Below are positions 1-10,869 of a DNA stretch of 11,110 nt, in pieces. This stretch comes from Acidimicrobiaceae bacterium. Its GTDB lineage: Bacteria > Actinomycetota > Acidimicrobiia > Acidimicrobiales > Bog-793. The stretch is from contig PMZN01000064.1 in assembly GCA_003170375.1 (NCBI GenBank), positions 261 to 11,370 on the forward strand, read 5' to 3'. The notes under the pieces are model-generated. The model had not been told where the DNA came from and did not search any database. It saw only the letters and a program-made list of their open reading frames with translations. A program made the translations under genes and the position numbers. The number at the start of each line of letters is the position of its first letter. The first letter of the stretch is position 1.

Positions 1-2135
1 TCGATCATGCGCGTCGCGCAGTACTTCGGGCCAAGGGTGCGCATTGACGCGCGTACCCGTTGCAGCCAAAGCTTCGGGATCCCACGATCGTCGCGCTCAA
101 AGAACGACGGCCTCACCTCATTCTCGATCAAGGCGTAGAGAGTCGCGGCATCACGCTCGTCTTTTGCCGAATCGTCAGGGTCAACATCGCCATCGATCCC
201 CCAGCCGTTCGACCCGTCGAAGCCCTCCATCCACCAGCCGTCGAGCACGCTCACATTGAGACAGCCGTTCAGAGCGGCCTTCATGCCGCTCGTGCCGCTC
301 GCCTCGAGCGGGGGACGTGGCAGGTTGAGCCAGACGTCGCAGCCGGCGATCAGGGTGCCGGCGACGCTCAAGTCGTAGTCCTCTATGAAGACCACGCGAT
401 TGCCCACCCCGGGCGACCGCCTCAGCGCGAACATGCGCTGCGCGATCGCTTTTGCGGCGTCGTCGAGGGGATGGGCCTTGCCCGCAAAGACGAATTGTGC
501 CGGTCGGTCATGATCGAGCAGGTCCAAGGCCCGTGGCGTATCGTGCAAGATCAAGTTGAGCCGCTTGTAGGTCGCGAGACGGCGAGCGAACCCGATGGTG
601 AGGAATGAAGGGTCGAACGCTTCCGCTCCAGCCTGCACATAGTCGATGTCCTCGCCACGTGCGAGGCGGTCGACGACGACCTTCCGCCGTATAAGCGCGA
701 CCAGATCCCTTCTCTGCTCGCAACGGACCTCCCAAAGCTCCTCGTCCGGGATCGCGTCGACGCCGGCCCAAACTGCTGGGTCGGACGCGCGCCGTTCCCA
801 GCCCTCGCCAAAGTGGCGGGTCAGCAACGCCCGCATCGGCGGGGCCATCCAGGTCGGCAGGTGCACCGCGTTCGTGACGTGACGAATCGGGACCTGGTCG
901 ATCGTCCCGTGCGGGAACATCTCGTGCCACATGCCGCGTGCGACCAGCTCATGGCGCGCGCTCACCGCGTTCGTCGAGCGGGCCGCACGGATCGCGAGCG
1001 GCGTCAGGCCACTGGCCTCGCCCGCATCGGCCGGGTGCACCCGGCCGAGCTCTACCAGCGACTCAGGGTCGAAATGCAATTCGTCGGCCAGCGACCCGAG
1101 GACCGCGAGAATCTCCTCGCGGTTATAGGTCTCGTTGCCGGCCTGCACGGGGGTGTGGGTGGTGAACACGAAGCGCTCGCGACCGCGTCCTATCGCCAAC
1201 GCGAGGTCACCGACGTGGCGGTTCGAAAAGCCGGCCATCCGCGACGCGACAGCCAGGGCGGCCAGGGCGGCATGGCCCTCGTTGAGGTGGAACAGGGAGG
1301 GCGTGATCCCCATGGCGTCGAGTGCGCGAACCCCACCTACCCCAAGGAGGGCGTACTGCGCCAGGCGGATCGCCCGGTTGCCCTCGTACAGGCGTGAGCT
1401 GACCCAGCGCTGCAGGGGGGTGTTCTCCGCGATCTCTGCGTCAAGGAGGTAGACCGGCACGCGCCCGACGTCGGTTCGCCACACGTGGGCGGCAAGAAGT
1501 CCGTCCCAGACCGGGACCCTGACCGTGAGTGGCGAACCGTCGGAGTCGGTGACGCGCACCGCGGGCAACATCTCGGGATCGGCTTCGATCCAGTACTCCT
1601 GTTGCCATCCTGTCCGGTCCATGCGCTGGTGCAAGTAGCCCCGGCGATAGAGCAGGCCGACCCCGACAAGCGGCAGCGCCTGGTCCGACGCCTCCTTCAG
1701 CAGGTCACCGGCTAGCACCCCGAGCCCTCCCGAGTACACCGGCAGCGACCGGTGGACGCCGAACTCGGCGCAGAAGAACGCGACCGGTCCATCACCGAGG
1801 TCCGGTCGAGCCGGGCGGGCAAGGTCGGCGTCGAGGACTTGGGCGACGACCTCGACACGAGCGAGGTACTCGTCGTCGGTTGCAGCCTCGAGAAGCGAAC
1901 GCTCGGACAAGTCTCGGAGGAAGCGAACGGGATTCTCGCCACTCAAAGTGAAGCGGTAAGCCCCGAATTGCCGGAAGAGCTCCCGGCCGCCCGGTGTCCA
2001 CGACCAGCGGTAGTTGTAGGCGATCTGCGCGAGGGGTTGCAGCGGCTCCGGTAGCCGGCGCGCCAGGCGGTCGACGGCGCGAGCCAGGTCGCTCGTGCCG
2101 TCGAGACGGGAATCGCGGTCGCGGGACACAGTCAT
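1..2135 (-). CDS. glgP: alpha-glucan phosphorylase, GT35, C-terminus cut by window edge
   Basis: Cytosolic PLP-dependent phosphorylase that releases glucose 1-phosphate from the non-reducing ends of glycogen or maltodextrin. The frame is open without a stop from the ATG at 2135 to the left edge, giving 711 visible residues. Family members are about 850 long, so roughly the last 130 are missing. The N-terminus has the DUF3417-type signature YNYRWSW followed by ELF. The substrate-site loop LPVYSGGLGVLAGD lies near residues 130-145. His327 sits in TTHTPVQAG, the phosphate-contacting RR...YKR motif is in GFARRLATYKR, and the FAGKAHP segment follows. The PLP lysine is Lys619 in EASGTSGMKAALNG, a canonical form of the motif. 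The start lies 12 bases after the stop of the GH57 gene with no clear Shine-Dalgarno sequence, which suggests translational coupling. It is the last visible gene of the block. It is a paralogue of, and quite different from, the phosphorylase at the other end. Family assignment is firm; the preferred chain length cannot be read from sequence. Confidence 0.93.
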   Translation of the reverse strand, partial: MTVSRDRDSRLDGTSDLARAVDRLARRLPEPLQPLAQIAYNYRWSWTPGGRELFRQFGAYRFTLSGENPVRFLRDLSERSLLEAATDDEYLARVEVVAQVLDADLARPARPDLGDGPVAFFCAEFGVHRSLPVYSGGLGVLAGDLLKEASDQALPLVGVGLLYRRGYLHQRMDRTGWQQEYWIEADPEMLPAVRVTDSDGSPLTVRVPVWDGLLAAHVWRTDVGRVPVYLLDAEIAENTPLQRWVSSRLYEGNRAIRLAQYALLGVGGVRALDAMGITPSLFHLNEGHAALAALAVASRMAGFSNRHVGDLALAIGRGRERFVFTTHTPVQAGNETYNREEILAVLGSLADELHFDPESLVELGRVHPADAGEASGLTPLAIRAARSTNAVSARHELVARGMWHEMFPHGTIDQVPIRHVTNAVHLPTWMAPPMRALLTRHFGEGWERRASDPAVWAGVDAIPDEELWEVRCEQRRDLVALIRRKVVVDRLARGEDIDYVQAGAEAFDPSFLTIGFARRLATYKRLNLILHDTPRALDLLDHDRPAQFVFAGKAHPLDDAAKAIAQRMFALRRSPGVGNRVVFIEDYDLSVAGTLIAGCDVWLNLPRPPLEASGTSGMKAALNGCLNVSVLDGWWMEGFDGSNGWGIDGDVDPDDSAKDERDAATLYALIENEVRPSFFERDDRGIPKLWLQRVRASMRTLGPKYCATRMI

Positions 2136-2147
2136 CAGGGTGTGAAC

Positions 2148-4226
2148 CTAGTGGTTCGGTGGGGCGAGCTCATAGCCGGCGAGGGAGCTGGGCCACTCGA
2201 CCGACGCCGCCGTGGCGAACGGGGCGAGGGCACCCAGCGCTTGGATCGTCTCCTCCGAGACGGAGGCATCGCGCAGCACCGCGAGGGCGGCACCCATCGC
2301 GTCGATCTCGCGAGACTGCAGCGGAGCGGCGGCGGCGACTAGCGCTACGAGCACCGCTGCGTCATCGATCTCTGCTGGGCGTGTCCGCAGGCTCGCCGTC
2401 AGACAGCGCAAGGCGAGGAGCGGGTCGGCGTCGGCACGTCCCGTGAGACGCGCGGCGCCAACGCGCGCGATGACGTCGGAGTCGGTGTCAGCGAGCCTCG
2501 TGTCGCGCCAGCGATCGTCCCCGGGGGTACGGCTGCGAGCCAGGGCGCCCACAGCCCCAGTGCACTCGGCTTGGATCTCGACTACGACGCTCCGCAGCGT
2601 CGGCGTGTGCTCGACGATCACCGCGCCACTGACGCGACCGGCGACCATCTCGAGGTCTCGGGAGGTGACAGTCCAGGCACCGCGCCGCGCTGGGGAACGA
2701 ACCGACCCGGCTACGAGCTCGAGCGCGAACGCCCCGGCGATCGCCGTTGCGTCGACTCGGCGAGTCTCGACCGAGCGGGCCCAGAGATCGCGGCCCGTGA
2801 GTGTCGGATCGAGATTCGATCTCGCTCCGTCGAGGCGCTCGAGGAACCCTGCAGCGACGTCGAGGCCGAGCACCCGTTCGGCGGTGTCGAGCACTACGGC
2901 CGCATGCCACAGTGACAACAGGGTCTCGACTCCCGTGACATCGGCGAAGAACCACGCGCAGCTCGTGAACGCCGAAAGGAGGTGGCGTTGCAGTTCGAGC
3001 AACTCGAGCGCGTGCGTCGTCTCGGCGTCTGAACACGGGCGGCCCGCTCTTCTCGCCACGAACGCTTCAGGTGCCTCTTGGCCCGCGACCACGACGCCGT
3101 AGTCGACAAGCGCGGCGAGGGGGTCGCCGAACAAGGGTCGCACGCCAACCGCGACCGGCTCCGCGAGGGTTGACCGTAGCCAGTCGAGCGCCTCGCGAAG
3201 CGGCGCCCGCCAGGACTGGTTCCATCCCGGCTGCGAACCCGTGGTGCAGCCGCAGTCCGAACGCCACCGCTCCACGCCGTGAGCGCAGCTCCATGAGGAC
3301 GGCGTGACCAGCTCGACCTCCCAGGCTGGTGGATGGTCCTCGAGCCACGCGCCAAGGTTCGTGACCTCGACATTCTCGGCCGACAGTTCGCGCGCCGCCC
3401 ACGCGAGCGCCATCTCGCCGAACTGGTGATGATGTCCGTAGGTCTCCCCGTCGCTGACGATCGCTATCAGCTCGTCGTCACCAGTCGTCGCAAGGGCAGC
3501 TCGAATAGCGTGCACGAACGAGGCCCCGTCGTCCAACAATGCTCCGAACGCGACCTCGCGCGACAGCGGGCCGTGCCCGAACACGACGGTCATTGACCCA
3601 CCGTCGGGCAACGCCACGAGGTAGGGACGGCTCGGGTCGATCTTCTCCCCGCTCACGTCGAGCCAGTCACCCCCGGGCGCGCGCACGCGACGCGCCTGCT
3701 CTGGCATGAGGACGGTGAAGCCAATCCCGTGCCGGGCGAGAGCCGCGAGCGTGTCGAGGTCCACCGCGGTCTCCGGCAGCCACATTCCCTCGGGTGAAAA
3801 GCCGAAGCGCGCCTTGAAGTCGGCGACGCCCCAGGCCACGAGCACGTCACGATCCTCGGGCGAGGCAAGCGGCAGGATCGCGTGGATCGCCGGTGCCGCG
3901 AGTGCCGCGCCGCTCGGTCGCCCGCCTTCCCCCCGTGCAGCAGAGCGCACGACGGAGTCAACATCGGGCGCATTGCTCGCCAACCAGCCGTGGAGCGTCC
4001 CCACAAGGTCGAAGCTCGCGATCGCGAAATTGTCACAGGACGCACGCAGGCGTCGGTCGGACGCCAGCACGGCGGCGACCGTGTTGGGTCGGTAGCACTC
4101 CGCGGTGATCCGCTGATTCCAGTCGTGATACGGGAACGCGCTGGGCTCAGGTTCGATGACCTCGAGCCAAGGGTCGGCGCGCGGCGGCTGGTAGCAGTGG
4201 AGATGGAAGCAAACGGCGAGCGTCAT
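2148..4226 (-). CDS. GH57 family protein with DUF3536 C-terminal region
   Basis: Glycoside hydrolase family 57 protein of the DUF3536 type, 692 residues, shorter than the roughly 800 I expect for relatives. The start ATG is 6 bases after the stop of the fusion gene. The N-terminus FHLHCYQPPRADPW (His8, His10) is the GH57 opening motif and is followed by YHDWNQRITAECY. The HAILPLA segment comes next. Glu152 in GMWLPETAVD matches the GH57 catalytic nucleophile region, and Asp259 in SDGETYGHHH matches the acid/base region, so it looks catalytically competent. SSWSCAHGVERW (residues 310-320) and the later TSCAWFFADVTGVETLL are hallmarks of the DUF3536 part. No signal peptide or membrane segment is visible, so it is probably cytosolic. 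GH57 enzymes include alpha-amylases, amylopullulanases, 4-alpha-glucanotransferases and branching enzymes; I know of no firmly established activity for the DUF3536 type. Its position between branching and phosphorylase genes implies an alpha-glucan substrate. A debranching role is possible but is only inference. Confidence 0.9.
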   Translation of the reverse strand: MTLAVCFHLHCYQPPRADPWLEVIEPEPSAFPYHDWNQRITAECYRPNTVAAVLASDRRLRASCDNFAIASFDLVGTLHGWLASNAPDVDSVVRSAARGEGGRPSGAALAAPAIHAILPLASPEDRDVLVAWGVADFKARFGFSPEGMWLPETAVDLDTLAALARHGIGFTVLMPEQARRVRAPGGDWLDVSGEKIDPSRPYLVALPDGGSMTVVFGHGPLSREVAFGALLDDGASFVHAIRAALATTGDDELIAIVSDGETYGHHHQFGEMALAWAARELSAENVEVTNLGAWLEDHPPAWEVELVTPSSWSCAHGVERWRSDCGCTTGSQPGWNQSWRAPLREALDWLRSTLAEPVAVGVRPLFGDPLAALVDYGVVVAGQEAPEAFVARRAGRPCSDAETTHALELLELQRHLLSAFTSCAWFFADVTGVETLLSLWHAAVVLDTAERVLGLDVAAGFLERLDGARSNLDPTLTGRDLWARSVETRRVDATAIAGAFALELVAGSVRSPARRGAWTVTSRDLEMVAGRVSGAVIVEHTPTLRSVVVEIQAECTGAVGALARSRTPGDDRWRDTRLADTDSDVIARVGAARLTGRADADPLLALRCLTASLRTRPAEIDDAAVLVALVAAAAPLQSREIDAMGAALAVLRDASVSEETIQALGALAPFATAASVEWPSSLAGYELAPPNH

Positions 4227-4232
4227 CGCCGC

Positions 4233-7200
4233 TCACACCGCCGGGCACAGGACGACAAGTGCGAGTGGCGGCAGCACGAGCGAGGCACTGTGGTCGCGGC
4301 CGTGCCAAGGCGTCTCGGTTGTGTCGAACGAGTCCGTCAGCGGGTAGCCGCTGCCGCCGAATTCAGACGCGTCGCTATTGACGAGCACCTTCCATCGGCC
4401 GCCGTGCGGCATGCCCACGCGGTACGCCTCTCGCGGCACAGGGGTGAAGTTGGCCAGGACCACGAGCACGCCGCCGGCGCCGTCGCACCGTTCGTAGCAC
4501 AGCACGCTCTGCGCCCGGTCTTCGCAGTCGATCCAAGCAAAGCCGCTGTCGGCGAGGTCGTCGCAGTGCAGGGACGGTTCGGAGCGGTACAGCTCGTTGA
4601 GCCGGCGTACCCAGGCGGAGATGCCTTGGTGGGCGGGTGAGTTGAACAAATGCCAGTCCAGGCTCGTGTCGTGGTTCCACTCGGATCGCTGGCCGAACTC
4701 GCCACCCATGAAAAGCAGCTTCTTGCCGGGTTGGGTGAACTGGTAGCCGTAAAGAAGTCGGAGATTCGCGAACTGCTGCCACTCGTCGCCGGCCATGCTG
4801 GCGAGCAACGAGCCTTTGCCGTGTACGACCTCGTCGTGCGACAACGGCAGGACGAAATGCTCGCTGTTCGCATAGATCGCCCGGAAGGTCAGCCTGTCGT
4901 GATGCCAGGGGCGGTAAATGGGATCACGGGAGAAGTAGTCGAGCGTGTCATGCATCCAGCCCATGTCCCACTTGAAGCCGAAGCCGAGCCCACCCGTGTC
5001 GGCCGGCCGGGAGACCCCCGGCCACGCCGTGGACTCCTCCGCGATCATCATGACGTCGGGAAACGACCTGTACACCTCAGTGTTGCAGGCTTGGAGAAGC
5101 TCGATCGCCTCGAGGTTCTCGTTGCCACCGAAGCGGTTCGCGACCCACTGTCCGCTCTGGCGCGAGTAGTCGAGGTAGAGCATCGAAGCCACCCCGTCCA
5201 TGCGCAGCCCGTCGGCATGGAACCGGTCGAGCCAGAAGCACGCGCTGGAGATCAGGAAGCTGCGAACCTCACTGCGTCCGAAGTTGAAGATCCAGCTCTG
5301 CCAGTCGGGGTGCACTCGCTGGCGGATGTCGGCGTGCTCATAGAGATGAGTGCCGTCGAAACTCGCCAACGCGAAGGCGTCGGAGGGAAAGTGCGACGGC
5401 ACCCAGTCGAGGATCACGCCGATGCCGGCCTGGTGGAACGCGTCGACGAACGCGGCAAAGTCGTTCGGAGTGCCGTAGCGGGCGCTCGGGGCGAAGTAGC
5501 CCGTGGTCTGGTACCCCCATGATCCGTAGAAGGGATGCTCCATGACCGGCAGGATCTCGACGTGGGTGAACCCGTGATGCTGGACATGGTCGATGAGCAG
5601 AGGAGCGAGCTCCTCATAGCTGAGAAAGCGGCCGTCCTCCTCGGGTACGCGTCGCCACGAACCGAGGTGCACCTCGTAGATCGAAATCGGCTTGTCAAGG
5701 CGCTGGAGTCGTTCGCGGCTGCGCATCCACTCGGCGTCGAGCCATTCATGGTCGGGTTCGAAGACCACAGATGCGGTCTTCGGCGGCCCCTCGTTGGCGA
5801 ACGCGAAGGGATCCGCCTTGTCGAACTCGCCACCACCGAGTCGCGACAGCAATCTGTACTTGTAGCGCATCCCAGCTGTGGCGCCAGGCAGGAAACCTTC
5901 CCAGACTCCCGAATCGCCGTGCGGCGAAAGTGGGTGTCGCGTGCCGTTCCAGTCGTTGAAGTCGCCGACCACGGCAACTCGTTCTGCGTTCGGCGCCCAC
6001 ACGGCGAAGAGAACTCCGGAGACGCCACCGACGGTCATCGGGTGGGCACCGAGCTTCTCGTACAGGCGAAAGTGCCGCCCTTCGTTGAACAGGCTGACGT
6101 CGGCGGAGTCGAGCGTGCTGACCCCCATCACGGTCTCGGCCGAGCGCTCCAGGCGACCGAGGGAGCCGGACGGGACACGCCCGCGGTGCTCCCGAAGCGG
6201 CGCCAATGCGTCGTGCACCACCGGATCATCCACGATCTGCTCCAAGGTGGCGCTCGTCAGGCGCTGCCAGTTGGGTCGTTCGGTGCTCGTCCCAGGCAGG
6301 TTGGCCGATTCCGATTCGCCGAGGAGGTCGTCAAGCTGCACGAACACAAGGCCGGCGTCGCTGCGAGCCAGCTCGCCATGGACTGCGGCGAGCACAGAGC
6401 CGGGCGCTCTGGTGCCGTCGGCCTCATCGCGTTCGGCTCCCCGGAGCTCGTCTTGACCCAAGAGGGAAAGCCGATCGCGCAGATGCGCCCGTCTTGCACG
6501 CTCCTCGCCCACCGAGGCGGCTCCCAACTGGCCGCACTCGACGCGCTCGTCGATGTCACGACCGCTCCACCAACCCGCGAATGTGGGCAGATCGTGGGTC
6601 GAGAAGGCGGCGACGCAACCAGCGGGCGGTGCTTCGAGCACCGGCTCGCCGGCGTCGCGAATGGAGAACTGCGCGACGTAGGAGCGCCGAATGCCACTGC
6701 GCCGCATCCCCTCCCGCACCTCGTCGTCGACCGTGCCGAGATCCTCGCCGATTATGTCCGCCTGATGGCGCTGGGCTTCGATCGCGAGTACGGCCAGCTG
6801 CTCTTCGAACGGCATCTTCACATAGACGCCGTCGCGTGGCTCGGCGCCGTCGGGTATCCAGAACAGCCTTTGCAGGCCCATCACGTGGTCGATGCGCAGT
6901 ATCCCAGCGACGCGCAAGTGGTGCGCGAGCGCAGCGCGGAGCTCCTCGTGACCGGCGGCCCGGAGCGCTTCGGGCCGAGTGGGAGGAAAGCCCCACGACT
7001 GGCCTTGCGCGAAGAAACCGTCCGGCGGCGCCCCGACCGACATGCCCATCGCGTACTGGTGGCGATGGCGCCAGACGTCGTAACCGCAGGGATGGATGCC
7101 CACCGGTAGGTCGAGCGCGAGGACTTGGCCACGCTGAGCAAGCCGCTCCGACAGCTCCGCCACCTGCTCGTGAGCGATCCACTGGGCGTAGATGTGATAG

Positions 7201-8303
7201 CGCTCACTGACCGGGTCGACGTCGCTCCACCTGAGCAGGCCGCCGCGCAGCGGCCCGGGCCAGGCGCGCCAGTTGACTCCGAAGCGATCGGTAGCCGCAC
7301 GAAAGCGCGCGTAGTCGACGAGCCCGGGGCGTTCGAACATGAAGTTGCGCAGAGCTGTCTCGCGACCCATCTGCGAGCGCCCCACGGCAGTCGCGAGCGC
7401 TCTAAGGACCGAGCGCTTCGCCGCGGTCACGGCGGAACCGTCGACGATCGTGCCGTTCACCCAGGCGGCGCGCCGTTTTGCCGCGCGTGGGCCCGAGACG
7501 AGCGCGTGCGCAGCCGGGGACCAAGCGAACTCTGGCACGCGTTCCACGTCGATCCAGCGTTCGTGCCAGAAGTGGCGGCTCACCGGCAGGTAGGGACTCG
7601 CCTCGAACGACTCCGGCCCGAACCCTGCGAGCAGCGGGAGCGTCGCGATCACGCTCGCTTGTTCCCTGGCAGCAAAGCGCGAAAGCTCGTCAAAGTCACT
7701 GAGGTCGCCCGATCCCCAGCTGCGAGCAGAGTGCAGCGAGAACAGCGGCGCAATGATCCCGAAGGCTCGCCAGTCCTGGGCAAAGCGCCCACGGGCGCCT
7801 GTCGCCGGCGCCACGATGACCGTTGCGGTGCCTGTGCGGCCTCGCACGCGGACCGTGAAGCTGTGGTAGCCGCACCCCAGGACCGCAGGAAGTGGAACGG
7901 CACCTCGGTACACGTTCCGGCCGTCGATGCGCTCGCTCGACAACGAGGCGAGATCGTCGCGCCGGACGTGCCACTCGAAACGGTCGCCCGCTTCGGATTC
8001 GATCGCGCATTCCAGGTCCTCGTCGGGCTCTCGCAGCCTGACGAGGATCTCGCCGCGGGACGCGTCGTCGAGGACGGTCACCGGTTCCACGATCTGCTCG
8101 ACGCGTTCGCTGCGCCGGCTGCGGAGCAGGCGGGTAGCCTCGCTCGCCTGCGCAATGGGCGTGCCGAGCGCGTTCAACACCGCGAGGAGCACCTCCGGAT
8201 CGGCATAGCGACGCTCGCCGGCGCCATCCAGGTACTCGAGCATCACGCCGGAGTCGGCAGCGAGGGCCCGCAGCGTCGCCGGGATCCGGGGAGCGGTTGC
8301 CAC
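4233..8303 (-). CDS. malQ-glgB: fused 4-alpha-glucanotransferase (MalQ, GH77) and 1,4-alpha-glucan branching enzyme (GlgB, GH13)
   Basis: One uninterrupted frame of 1356 residues carries two complete enzymes. The N-terminal half (about 1-700) is an E. coli-type MalQ, with a helical start, a beta-sandwich region and then the GH77 barrel. Its catalytic residues are Asp472 in LRIDHVMGL, Glu520 in IIGEDLGTV and Asp571 in STHDLPT; the family-typical LPGT...PNW ends near residue 679. A linker of about 40-60 residues leads to GlgB (about 738-1356). This has a CBM48 domain (LYEKLGAHP, WAPNAERVAVVGDFNDWNG), then the GH13 regions DWVPSHF, GLRMDGVASM (Asp1036), MIAEEST (Glu1089) and LSHDEVVHGK (Asp1157), and a C-terminal beta domain. 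MalQ transfers alpha-1,4 chains between maltodextrins and GlgB makes alpha-1,6 branches. I chose the GTG at 8303, 7 bases after the upstream phosphorylase stop, because it directly precedes the conserved MalQ N-terminus. The open frame extends to 8486, including an ATG at 8363, but that part has no MalQ-like sequence. The domain calls are firm; that the product is one protein in vivo is inferred. Confidence 0.92.
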   Translation of the reverse strand: MATAPRIPATLRALAADSGVMLEYLDGAGERRYADPEVLLAVLNALGTPIAQASEATRLLRSRRSERVEQIVEPVTVLDDASRGEILVRLREPDEDLECAIESEAGDRFEWHVRRDDLASLSSERIDGRNVYRGAVPLPAVLGCGYHSFTVRVRGRTGTATVIVAPATGARGRFAQDWRAFGIIAPLFSLHSARSWGSGDLSDFDELSRFAAREQASVIATLPLLAGFGPESFEASPYLPVSRHFWHERWIDVERVPEFAWSPAAHALVSGPRAAKRRAAWVNGTIVDGSAVTAAKRSVLRALATAVGRSQMGRETALRNFMFERPGLVDYARFRAATDRFGVNWRAWPGPLRGGLLRWSDVDPVSERYHIYAQWIAHEQVAELSERLAQRGQVLALDLPVGIHPCGYDVWRHRHQYAMGMSVGAPPDGFFAQGQSWGFPPTRPEALRAAGHEELRAALAHHLRVAGILRIDHVMGLQRLFWIPDGAEPRDGVYVKMPFEEQLAVLAIEAQRHQADIIGEDLGTVDDEVREGMRRSGIRRSYVAQFSIRDAGEPVLEAPPAGCVAAFSTHDLPTFAGWWSGRDIDERVECGQLGAASVGEERARRAHLRDRLSLLGQDELRGAERDEADGTRAPGSVLAAVHGELARSDAGLVFVQLDDLLGESESANLPGTSTERPNWQRLTSATLEQIVDDPVVHDALAPLREHRGRVPSGSLGRLERSAETVMGVSTLDSADVSLFNEGRHFRLYEKLGAHPMTVGGVSGVLFAVWAPNAERVAVVGDFNDWNGTRHPLSPHGDSGVWEGFLPGATAGMRYKYRLLSRLGGGEFDKADPFAFANEGPPKTASVVFEPDHEWLDAEWMRSRERLQRLDKPISIYEVHLGSWRRVPEEDGRFLSYEELAPLLIDHVQHHGFTHVEILPVMEHPFYGSWGYQTTGYFAPSARYGTPNDFAAFVDAFHQAGIGVILDWVPSHFPSDAFALASFDGTHLYEHADIRQRVHPDWQSWIFNFGRSEVRSFLISSACFWLDRFHADGLRMDGVASMLYLDYSRQSGQWVANRFGGNENLEAIELLQACNTEVYRSFPDVMMIAEESTAWPGVSRPADTGGLGFGFKWDMGWMHDTLDYFSRDPIYRPWHHDRLTFRAIYANSEHFVLPLSHDEVVHGKGSLLASMAGDEWQQFANLRLLYGYQFTQPGKKLLFMGGEFGQRSEWNHDTSLDWHLFNSPAHQGISAWVRRLNELYRSEPSLHCDDLADSGFAWIDCEDRAQSVLCYERCDGAGGVLVVLANFTPVPREAYRVGMPHGGRWKVLVNSDASEFGGSGYPLTDSFDTTETPWHGRDHSASLVLPPLALVVLCPAV
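6126..6131 (-). promoter_or_regulatory. possible internal start codons for a separate GlgB
   Basis: Adjacent in-frame GTG (6131) and ATG (6128) codons encode Val725-Met726 of the fusion, about 12 residues before the first conserved GlgB residues (LFNEG). A product from the ATG would be 631 residues, the normal length of a short-form branching enzyme. A GGAG lies about 20 bases upstream, too far for a good ribosome site, and only a weak GAG lies nearer. Internal initiation is therefore possible but unproven. Confidence 0.25.
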
Positions 8304-8310
8304 GATCGTC

Positions 8311-10869
8311 TCAGTCAGACCAGGTGATGAGGTCAGGAACGCACATGCCGGCGAGCGCGGCATGGCACGGCAGAACGCGGGCAACGAGCTCGGCGTCAGT
8401 GCCGGTCTCTTGCGGCACCTGCGCGCTGTAGCGGGCGACACCGTCGCGTCGTTCCTCGAAGCGGGCGGCGAGCGGATGGGCCGCACGCAGGCTCGGCGCG
8501 ACCCAGAGCTGCACGGTCACATCAGAAGGCTCGAGGAGGCCGAGATCTGCGACGATCTCGGCCCGCATGGCGCCGCCCGGCGCGACGGTGACGTCCTCGA
8601 CGGCGACGCGGATGGCGGGCCACCCGTCGCGTAGTCGTTCAAGAGCCGACGCAAGGTCGCGGGCCCGAGCGCCGCCCTCTGCCGCGAGCCAGCGCGCGCG
8701 GCGCGCCCCTGGAAGGTAGAACGACTCGACGTAGTCGTGCACCATCCGGTGCACGCTCCACGTCGGGGCCAGGCTCGCCATCGACTGGCGGATCGAGGCC
8801 AGCCAGGCACGGGGCAAGCCCTGGGCATCCCGGTCGTAGAAGGCCGGGACGATCTTGCGCTCGAGCCAGTCGTACAGCGATTCGGCATCGCTCGCGTCCT
8901 GTGCGTCGAGGTCCTCGTAGCGCTTGCCGGTTCCGATACACCAGCCGATCGGCGCCGCGGCCGGGTCGGCATCGTTCCATACCTCGTCCCACCAGCCATC
9001 GAGCGTGCTGCAGTTGAGCGAACCGTTTGCGCCTGCTTTCATGCCGCCGACGCCGCACGCCTCGAGCGGCCGCCGCGGGGTGTTCAGCCACAGATCGACG
9101 CCCTGCGCAAGGGCCCGGTCCATCGTGAGGTCGAAGTCCTCGATGAACACGACTCGATGCTCAAGTCCATATCGCCGCGCGAACTCGATGACTTCTCGTA
9201 ACAGCTGCTTTCCGAACTCGTCGCGGGGATGAGCCTTGCCTCCGAAGATGATCTGAACGGGACGGTCCGGATCGCCGAGGATGCGCGCGAGGCGTTCGGG
9301 GTCACGCAGGAACAGCGTGGGTCGCTTGTACGCGACAAAACGTCCGACGAAACCAATAGTGAGCGCATCCGCGTCGAGGAGCGCATCCGCGGCCGCGAGA
9401 CGCGTCGCATCGGCACCGCGGCGGGCAAGCTGCTCGTGGCGGCGAACACGGGTGAACTCGATGAGCCGGGCGCGCCCGCGACATTTAGCGTTCCACAGCG
9501 CCTCGTCCTCGGCCTCGATCAATGGCTTCCACGAGACTGGTGAGCCCGGCGTCGTCCGCCAAAACGACCCGAGCTGACGGTCGAGGAGCTCCTCGATCTC
9601 CGAGGAGATCCAGGATCTGAAGTGAATACCGTCCGTGACATGGCCGATCGGCACCTCGCTCAACGGCAGCCTTGGCCAAAGGCCGCCCCACTGGTCCCGA
9701 GTCACCCTGCCATGCAACCGGCTCACTCCGTTGGCGGCACCCGCGAGCCTCAGTGCAAGCACGGTCGGACAGAACGAGTCAAGTGGGTCGTCGGGCCGGT
9801 ATCTGCCGAGTGAGCTGAGCGTCGCGAGGTCGATGCCGAGCAGTGGGGCGTACGGAGCGAGGTACTGACTGGCTAGCTCGGCCGGGAAGTAATCATGTCC
9901 GGCGGCGACAGGGGTATGTGTCGTGAAAAGCAGTCCAGGTGCCGCGACGAGGCGAGCTTCGGCGAATGAGAGCCCGTCGCGTACCATCACCCGATGGATG
10001 CGCTCGAGCGCGGCGAAGGCGGTGTGCCCCTCGTTGAGGTGTGCCACCTCGGGGTCGTGACCGAGCGCCGCGAGCGCACGGACGCCGCCGATGCCGAGAA
10101 CGAGCTCCTGTTGGATACGCGTCTCCTGGTCACCGCCATACAGCCTCGCGGTGATCTCGCGGTCGTTGCGCCGATTCTGCCTGACGTCGGTGTCGAGCAG
10201 GTACAGCCGGGTCCGTCCGACCAGCACGGTCCACACCTGGACAACCACGTCGCGACCGGGCAACGGAACCTTGACCCGCACCGGACGGCCCGACTCGTCG
10301 CGTGCCACCTCGATGGGCAGCTGCTCGAAGTCGAGAACCTCCCACGACTCCTGTTGCAGCCCGGCGTCGTCAAGCCACTGATGTGACGTCTCGCGGTAGA
10401 GCAGACCGACCCCGAAGAGCGGAACACCGAGTGCGCTCGCCGACTTGAGGAACTCGCCGGCGACGGTGCCAAGGCCGCCCGCGTAGACCGGCAGCGAGTC
10501 CGTGAGGGCGAACTCCGCTGCAAAGAACCCGACCTCGAACTGGCGGTCCTTCCGGTGCGTCTGCGGGAACCAAGTCTTGGCGCGTTTCGCCTCGTAACGG
10601 GCTGCGCCATCGACGACCGTCGCTGCGCGCGCCGCGAGATCCGGGTCGGACGCGAGCCGCTCTTCTATGGCGGCGCGTCCGAGGCCGACAAGCAGGCGAC
10701 GGGGCCATTCGAGCGCAGAGGGTCCGGCAGCCGGGTCCAGGCGCGCGAAGAGGGCGCGCGTGCGCGCGTGCCAGGTCCATCCCAGGTTCGTCGCCACGCC
10801 GAGGAGGTCTTCAAACTCGACGACTTGGCTCCGCGACCTCCTCGGAGTAAACCGACGAGCCGTGATCAC
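8311..10869 (-). CDS. glgP: alpha-glucan phosphorylase, GT35, with variant PLP-lysine motif
   Basis: PLP-dependent alpha-glucan phosphorylase of 852 residues, full length for the DUF3417-containing family, and the first gene of the block. In order it shows ATNLGWTWHARTRALFARLDP (N-terminal DUF3417 region), LPVYAGGLGTVAGEFLK, HLNEGH, His318 in TTHTPVAAG, GFVGRFVAYKR (phosphate-site Arg and Lys), FGGKAHPRDEFGKQL, and Lys611 as the PLP lysine in EACGVGGMKAGANG. The C-terminal beta-rich extension ending in RVLPCH...LITWSD is typical of the group. The PLP motif is unusual: the normal T-S before GMK is V-G, and the usual Leu or Met before the Asn is Ala. The start is GTG at 10869, because no in-frame start lies just upstream and a strong AAGGAGGTG immediately precedes it. 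The conserved part begins near residue 21, so a slightly later start cannot be excluded. It would make glucose 1-phosphate from alpha-glucan; the altered motif leaves substrate preference, or even activity, open. Confidence 0.93.
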   Translation of the reverse strand: MITARRFTPRRSRSQVVEFEDLLGVATNLGWTWHARTRALFARLDPAAGPSALEWPRRLLVGLGRAAIEERLASDPDLAARAATVVDGAARYEAKRAKTWFPQTHRKDRQFEVGFFAAEFALTDSLPVYAGGLGTVAGEFLKSASALGVPLFGVGLLYRETSHQWLDDAGLQQESWEVLDFEQLPIEVARDESGRPVRVKVPLPGRDVVVQVWTVLVGRTRLYLLDTDVRQNRRNDREITARLYGGDQETRIQQELVLGIGGVRALAALGHDPEVAHLNEGHTAFAALERIHRVMVRDGLSFAEARLVAAPGLLFTTHTPVAAGHDYFPAELASQYLAPYAPLLGIDLATLSSLGRYRPDDPLDSFCPTVLALRLAGAANGVSRLHGRVTRDQWGGLWPRLPLSEVPIGHVTDGIHFRSWISSEIEELLDRQLGSFWRTTPGSPVSWKPLIEAEDEALWNAKCRGRARLIEFTRVRRHEQLARRGADATRLAAADALLDADALTIGFVGRFVAYKRPTLFLRDPERLARILGDPDRPVQIIFGGKAHPRDEFGKQLLREVIEFARRYGLEHRVVFIEDFDLTMDRALAQGVDLWLNTPRRPLEACGVGGMKAGANGSLNCSTLDGWWDEVWNDADPAAAPIGWCIGTGKRYEDLDAQDASDAESLYDWLERKIVPAFYDRDAQGLPRAWLASIRQSMASLAPTWSVHRMVHDYVESFYLPGARRARWLAAEGGARARDLASALERLRDGWPAIRVAVEDVTVAPGGAMRAEIVADLGLLEPSDVTVQLWVAPSLRAAHPLAARFEERRDGVARYSAQVPQETGTDAELVARVLPCHAALAGMCVPDLITWSD

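Follow-up and report, generated by a model that had tools for sequence, protein, structure and literature searches.

The genes for the branching enzyme GlgB and the 4-alpha-glucanotransferase MalQ are fused in a Neisseria, as told in section 3.3 of a 2024 review (PMC11046441, of which we draw on part; the species is N. suica in the text and N. sicca in the legend). Passages of PMC10395257 and PMC6339891 credit Park et al. 2011 with showing that E. coli MalQ takes part in forming glycogen or maltodextrin, and the portion of PMC11206854 that concerns GH57 describes a DUF3536-containing member as hydrolytic with almost no branching activity. Here we analyzed 11,110 nucleotides of an Acidimicrobiaceae bacterium (assembly GCA_003170375.1, contig PMZN01000064.1, positions 261 to 11,370; the window), in which a MalQ-GlgB fusion shares a cassette with two alpha-glucan phosphorylases and a GH57 protein. 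A preliminary description of this DNA had taken the fused architecture to be undescribed; the Neisseria report and the Joint Genome Institute (JGI) protein name 'alpha-1,4-glucan:alpha-1,4-glucan 6-glycosyltransferase/4-alpha-glucanotransferase' show otherwise. We tentatively propose, at somewhat under an even chance, that the four-gene cassette would make and turn over a branched storage glucan with no GlgA, GlgM or GlgE involved.

Results

The fusion encodes two complete enzymes

The fusion genuinely unites two enzymes, with an E. coli-type MalQ leading into GlgB via a short flexible linker. Its frame, on the minus strand (the preliminary description had named no strand), runs from a GTG start at 8303 to a stop at 4233 and is uninterrupted over 1356 codons. 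As had been claimed, this one frame carries a complete GH77 enzyme and a complete CBM48-GH13 branching enzyme with no stop between them, and curated cut-offs were passed: the GH77 domain (PF02446) scored 311.9 bits against a cut-off of 25, the MalQ half scored 266.8 bits with NCBIfam TIGR00217 malQ (cut-off 205.65), and the GlgB half scored 947.7 bits with the equivalog model NF003811 (cut-off 741) and 855.8 bits with TIGR01515. Within the GlgB half, Pfam placed CBM48 at residues 750-834 (82.1 bits) and the alpha-amylase C domain at 1257-1353 (78.3 bits). By sequence, the MalQ half came closest to the solved structures 4s3p and 5b68 and the GlgB half to 6joy, 8zqa, 1m7x and 3k1d, and the fusion was the sole GH77 gene found in the genome of the window.

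The Asp/Glu/Asp set D472, E520 and D571 aligned with that of the 4-alpha-glucanotransferase 4s3p, and we take these to be the catalytic residues of the GH77 half. Among the best 120 of 4758 database matches, which include the window's own protein (P0001), D472, E520, D571, D1036 and E1089 were invariant (120/120), and D1157 was kept in 119, the remaining one having a gap. All six catalytic residues named beforehand thus stand at their positions and are conserved bar that gap, and from sequence both the GH77 and the GH13 half look catalytically intact. An AlphaFold2 model of residues 160-1356, made with 57 sequences, had a mean predicted local distance difference test score (pLDDT) of 88.4 and a predicted template modelling score (pTM) of 0.59; the halves were confident, and pLDDT fell below 50 at the linker (710-722) and at two further short segments, 619-630 and 1159-1162. 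The spacer between residues 693 and 733 measured 27-56 residues in 108 of the 112 full-length fusions and 79-226 in the other four. Channelling of chains between the halves, suggested in the preliminary description, is left unsupported because the predicted structure gives them no fixed arrangement; a rigid channel joining both active sites likewise finds no support in the model.

The fused frame is real and was probably not made from the family's own gene pair

Three other genomes of the genus carry full-length, unbroken fusion frames 88, 82 and 80% identical to that of the window, so that all four genus genomes examined are carriers, and 112 of the 120 best database proteins align across more than 90% of the window protein. 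A stop or frameshift between the halves in close relatives was looked for, and the three genus genomes have the unbroken frame. A sequencing or assembly artefact, to which the incomplete source assembly (199 contigs) might point, is therefore ruled out for practical purposes by these frames and by the many database proteins from several sources; we give it hardly any weight. Loci named Myxococcota, Calditrichaeota, proteobacterium and Legionella hold fused frames as well. They were found in 4 of 35 genomes of the family sample, all of one genus, in at least 1 of 148 of the order sample and in at least 6 of 395 of the class sample (G000, G297, G385, G430, G180 and G423, the last two added by direct reading of long frames); the order and class counts are lower bounds, rows with short frames having been covered in part.

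In many relatives malQ and glgB are adjacent, separate genes, and in four family genomes (G168, G169, G173 and G175) their open stretches are in frame with each other and parted by just one stop codon. The family loci whose malQ and glgB are parted by a single in-frame stop are L116, L117, L118 and L204; they show a possible route to fusion, and these genes are not the parents of the fusion studied here.

Quick trees without bootstrap were made for each half, with 12 of the 120 database proteins added to each. The MalQ tree held 78 rows, some genomes entering twice; the GlgB tree held the 133 that were left after removal of loci occurring more than once and of alternate unfused rows in the ranges L019-L081 and L084-L112. 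The window grouped among fused proteins in both (MalQ half: 18 rows, Shimodaira-Hasegawa-like approximate likelihood ratio test (SH-aLRT) 100; GlgB half: 20 rows, SH-aLRT 98), with fused proteins of other Acidimicrobiia and apart from the unfused genes that its own family has. On this placement we reject a fusion of the family's own malQ-glgB pair and, since both halves group with other fusions, it is probable that the gene reached the genus already fused, or is an old fusion retained there, and was not formed from its family's pair. Fused and separate states switched several times: parsimony counted 6 changes in the MalQ tree and 8 in the GlgB tree, and starred branches force at least two in each.

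The fusion belongs to a conserved four-gene cassette

Four genes on the same strand, in the order phosphorylase A, fusion, GH57/DUF3536 and phosphorylase B, are separated by 7, 6 and 12 bases (Table 1). The preliminary description had left the two flanking phosphorylases unmentioned; these could lengthen chains using glucose-1-phosphate, in which case MalQ is not necessarily the sole chain builder. Phosphorylase B, cut by the window, has a full frame of 781 amino acids in its contig (L082 53-2395). We defined the carrier set as 13 Acidimicrobiia genomes with the fusion, the four genomes of the genus counting as one event; the fusions of G180 and G423 lie outside this set and its GlgE and GlgA counts. 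As far as contigs reach, the cassette order was kept in 13/13 carrier loci: all four genes are present, at least in part, in G000, G154, G155, G156, G297, G385, G430, L004, L005, L006 and L007, and in L003 and L015 the contig stops short of one or more of them. Two frames share the downstream phosphorylase of G156 (L166, 13926-16032), owing either to an assembly error or to decay of the gene.

Phosphorylase A carries the loop EACG[V/I]GGMK where the common form reads EA[S/C]GTSGMK; in phosphorylases this loop bears the pyridoxal-phosphate lysine. The variant loop was found in 11/11 other cassettes in which this region was readable; 108 of 120 database relatives also have it, allowing for small variants, the other 12 being off the pattern used; the phosphorylase B loop, EASGTSGMK, was found in 10/10 other cassettes where read. 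Four fused loci outside the carrier set (L008, L011, L014 and L017) have a GH57 gene beside the fusion and, within the stretch examined, no phosphorylase of the cassette kind near it, and L209 (G423) has GH57 and a common-loop phosphorylase on the opposite strand. Relatives of the GH57/DUF3536 protein lie near glgB, fused or unfused, in many loci of Chloroflexota, Acidobacteriota, Verrucomicrobiota and Myxococcota. A sequence search gave no solved structure below E 0.016 for the GH57/DUF3536 protein.

Table 1. Features of the MalQ-GlgB fusion and of the cassette genes around it (positions in the window; CDS, coding sequence; ORF, open reading frame; aa, amino acids)
Feature	Position	Strand	Evidence
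MalQ-GlgB fusion CDS, 1356 aa	4233..8303	(-)	ORF reading, Pfam/NCBIfam matches, relatives
MalQ N-terminal beta-sandwich domain, residues 73-166	7806..8087	(-)	Pfam PF21226 (MalQ_N), 50.4 bits
GH77 4-alpha-glucanotransferase domain, residues 186-681, with D472, E520, D571	6261..7748	(-)	Pfam PF02446; aligned with 4s3p; residues conserved
Low-confidence linker segment, residues 710-722	6138..6176	(-)	pLDDT <50 at model residues 551-563
GlgB half, residues 735-1352: CBM48, GH13 barrel (D1036, E1089, D1157), C-terminal beta domain	4248..6101	(-)	TIGR01515, NF003811; PDB 6joy, 1m7x, 3k1d
GT35/DUF3417 alpha-glucan phosphorylase A, upstream, variant motif EACGVGGMK	8311..10869	(-)	TIGR02094, 726.8 bits; motif reading
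GH57 protein with DUF3536	2148..4226	(-)	PF12055, 163.1 bits; PF03065, 57.1 bits
GT35/DUF3417 phosphorylase B, downstream, motif EASGTSGMK, cut by the window	3..2135	(-)	TIGR02094, 692.7 bits

GlgE and GlgA were not detected in the carriers

The GlgE N-domain was detected by a profile model in none of the 13 carriers, whose genomes are incomplete, while the same model found it in 23 of 35 family genomes. Sorted by the state of glgB, it was present in 23 of 24 family genomes with an unfused gene (all save G172), in 0 of 4 with the fusion and in 0 of 7 with no glgB hit. GlgA at E 1e-30 or better was found in 0/13 carriers, and within the genus neither the GlgM-type synthase (TIGR02149) nor GlgC exceeded its cut-off (each 0/4; in the family, 12/35 and 11/35, respectively). 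On these counts the carriers fall into neither the GlgE pathway (GlgE 0/13) nor the GlgC-GlgA pathway (GlgA 0/13; GlgC 0/4 of the genus), and the earlier suggestion of branched glucan made without a sugar-nucleotide synthase has gained genomic support. A GH13 domain census detected the fusion as the sole GH13 gene in 6 of the 13 carriers (G430, G506, G507, G509, G510 and G515). Within the genus, GlgX exceeded its cut-off in one genome, G155 (978.6 bits), as would fit a branched glucan.

Discussion

A proposed branched storage glucan made without a dedicated synthase

If the cassette works as we propose, the phosphorylases would act reversibly on linear chains, adding or removing units by way of glucose-1-phosphate, the MalQ half would reshuffle short maltodextrins into chains long enough for branching, the GlgB half would branch these chains, so making new ends, and the GH57 enzyme would trim or transfer chains. 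That branched glucan would form out of glucose-1-phosphate or maltodextrins with no dedicated synthase at work is plausible; what the enzymes catalyse, which way the flux runs and whether the tether brings any benefit are inferred. A sharper version of the proposal, in which phosphorylase A, with its variant loop, would be a dedicated chain builder, MalQ-GlgB the elongating and branching engine and phosphorylase B the breakdown enzyme of a synthase-free storage-glucan cycle, the cassette having replaced the family's GlgE pathway in the genus, strikes us as unlikely.

Several observations weigh against synthesis by the cassette alone. In cells the phosphorylase reaction usually runs towards phosphorolysis, away from synthesis. 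TreS exceeded its cut-off in 4/4 genus genomes, and near it lies a maltokinase-cap protein scoring 25.6, 21.7, 26.1 and 25.0 bits (cut-off 22), these TreS-adjacent proteins matching a putative maltokinase model weakly; TreS and this neighbour persist in the four genus genomes (L179, L177, L187 and L178), in which no GlgE was found. According to the parts of PMC11046441 that treat these genes, TreS and maltokinase normally feed GlgE, and an uncharacterised GT4 protein of an archaeon has been speculated to be a glycogen synthase. By analogy, GT4-type proteins found in 4/4 genus genomes below the GlgM cut-off (best 85-125 bits versus 302.4) may include a synthase. Genome completeness was 80-97% for seven carriers, with no figure for six, and the GlgC and GlgM searches covered four of the 13 carriers, those of the genus. 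Five other fused genomes have either GlgA over its cut-off (G512, G514 and G516) or the GlgE domain (G511 and G513), and therefore the fusion as such is no synthase replacement.

The gene set could instead serve breakdown: the cassette would degrade stored glucan or maltodextrins taken up by the cell, MalQ would return short chains to a form that the phosphorylases can use, and GlgB would do no more than buffer the pool. A pair of phosphorylases together with MalQ and a GH57 protein that has a hydrolytic domain relative does resemble a degradation set, GlgX occurs in one genome, and some carriers have extra GH13 genes resembling TreC/BglA/TreS-type models, below every cut-off. A branching enzyme, however, serves no obvious purpose if glucan is only broken down, and yet is kept in 13/13 carriers, the six carriers named above showed neither a debranching gene nor any further GH13 gene, and the 14 neighbouring genes scanned (4 + 10, a subset of the neighbours) included no sugar importer, the ATP-binding cassette (ABC) genes beside L170 resembling branched-chain amino acid transport; we consider a purely catabolic module rather doubtful. 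The TreS and maltokinase-like genes would alternatively be explained if the usual trehalose route (TreS, maltokinase, GlgE) fed the fusion and GlgE had been missed through assembly gaps or divergence, but the GlgE model that succeeded in most of the family failed in every carrier, the non-fusion GH13 genes of the genus are TreS, GlgX or sub-cut-off TreC/BglA-like proteins, and six carriers have no TreS-like GH13, so that this route appears improbable.

Compatible with any of these accounts is a neutral origin, in which a stop codon was lost between neighbouring genes and the fusion yields equal enzyme amounts with no kinetic coupling. The single stop between malQ and glgB in four other family genomes, the pTM of 0.59 and low-confidence linker, which define no interface, and the variable spacer all fit such an origin. 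Against it, the fused form has been kept over deep divergence (about 45% full-length identity at the end of the best-120 list) and has been gained or lost repeatedly, which suggests some advantage; a neutral fusion is a possibility that we take seriously without favouring it.

Should the cassette build branched glucan alone, it would be a natural glycogen pathway without a nucleotide sugar or a maltose-1-phosphate transferase; whether phosphorylase can serve as a synthetic enzyme in a living cell would become testable, and one protein turning short maltodextrins into branched polymer would be useful for enzymatic glucan synthesis. Should it not, the locus is still a conserved variant of a fusion described only from Neisseria in the open-access literature that we found.

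Comparison with known systems

The case is one of a known architecture in a new setting, because the fusion is in print and in JGI names while no description of the cassette, of its presence in Acidimicrobiia or of a link to missing GlgA or GlgE was found in the open-access literature searched. That literature also yielded no biochemically characterised protein of the same architecture. The halves of the window protein align with separate MalQ (4s3p, 5b68) and GlgB (6joy, 1m7x, 3k1d) structures, catalytic residues included, and differ from them in forming a single chain instead of two proteins. A MalQ-like region joined to another alpha-glucan enzyme is also represented by the GlgX-MalQ fusion model NF011082 and by NF011077, a TreY model that matches the MalQ half over its first 730 positions; the partner enzyme differs in both, and the window protein scored 340 of 2511 and 456 of 2148 bits, respectively, far under the cut-offs.

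In E. coli, as PMC10395257 and PMC6339891 relate with reference to Park et al. 2011, MalQ makes longer maltodextrins able to enter glycogen, much as we suppose for the MalQ half; there the enzymes are separate and GlgA is present, whereas here the enzyme is fused and the genomes have no detected GlgA or GlgE. A Pontibacter GH57 (PMC11206854, in the section describing its locus) resembles that of the window by description, having DUF3536 and lying near a CBM48-GH13_9 branching enzyme, and unlike it comes from a locus linked to the GlgE pathway. Closest is the Neisseria fusion, which in the relevant part of PMC11046441 likewise has the 4-alpha-glucanotransferase at the N-terminus and the branching enzyme at the C-terminus and lies among glycogen genes. 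As far as descriptions can be compared, the Neisseria protein is discussed with amylosucrase as chain builder, whereas the fusion of the window is flanked by two DUF3417 phosphorylases and a GH57 protein.

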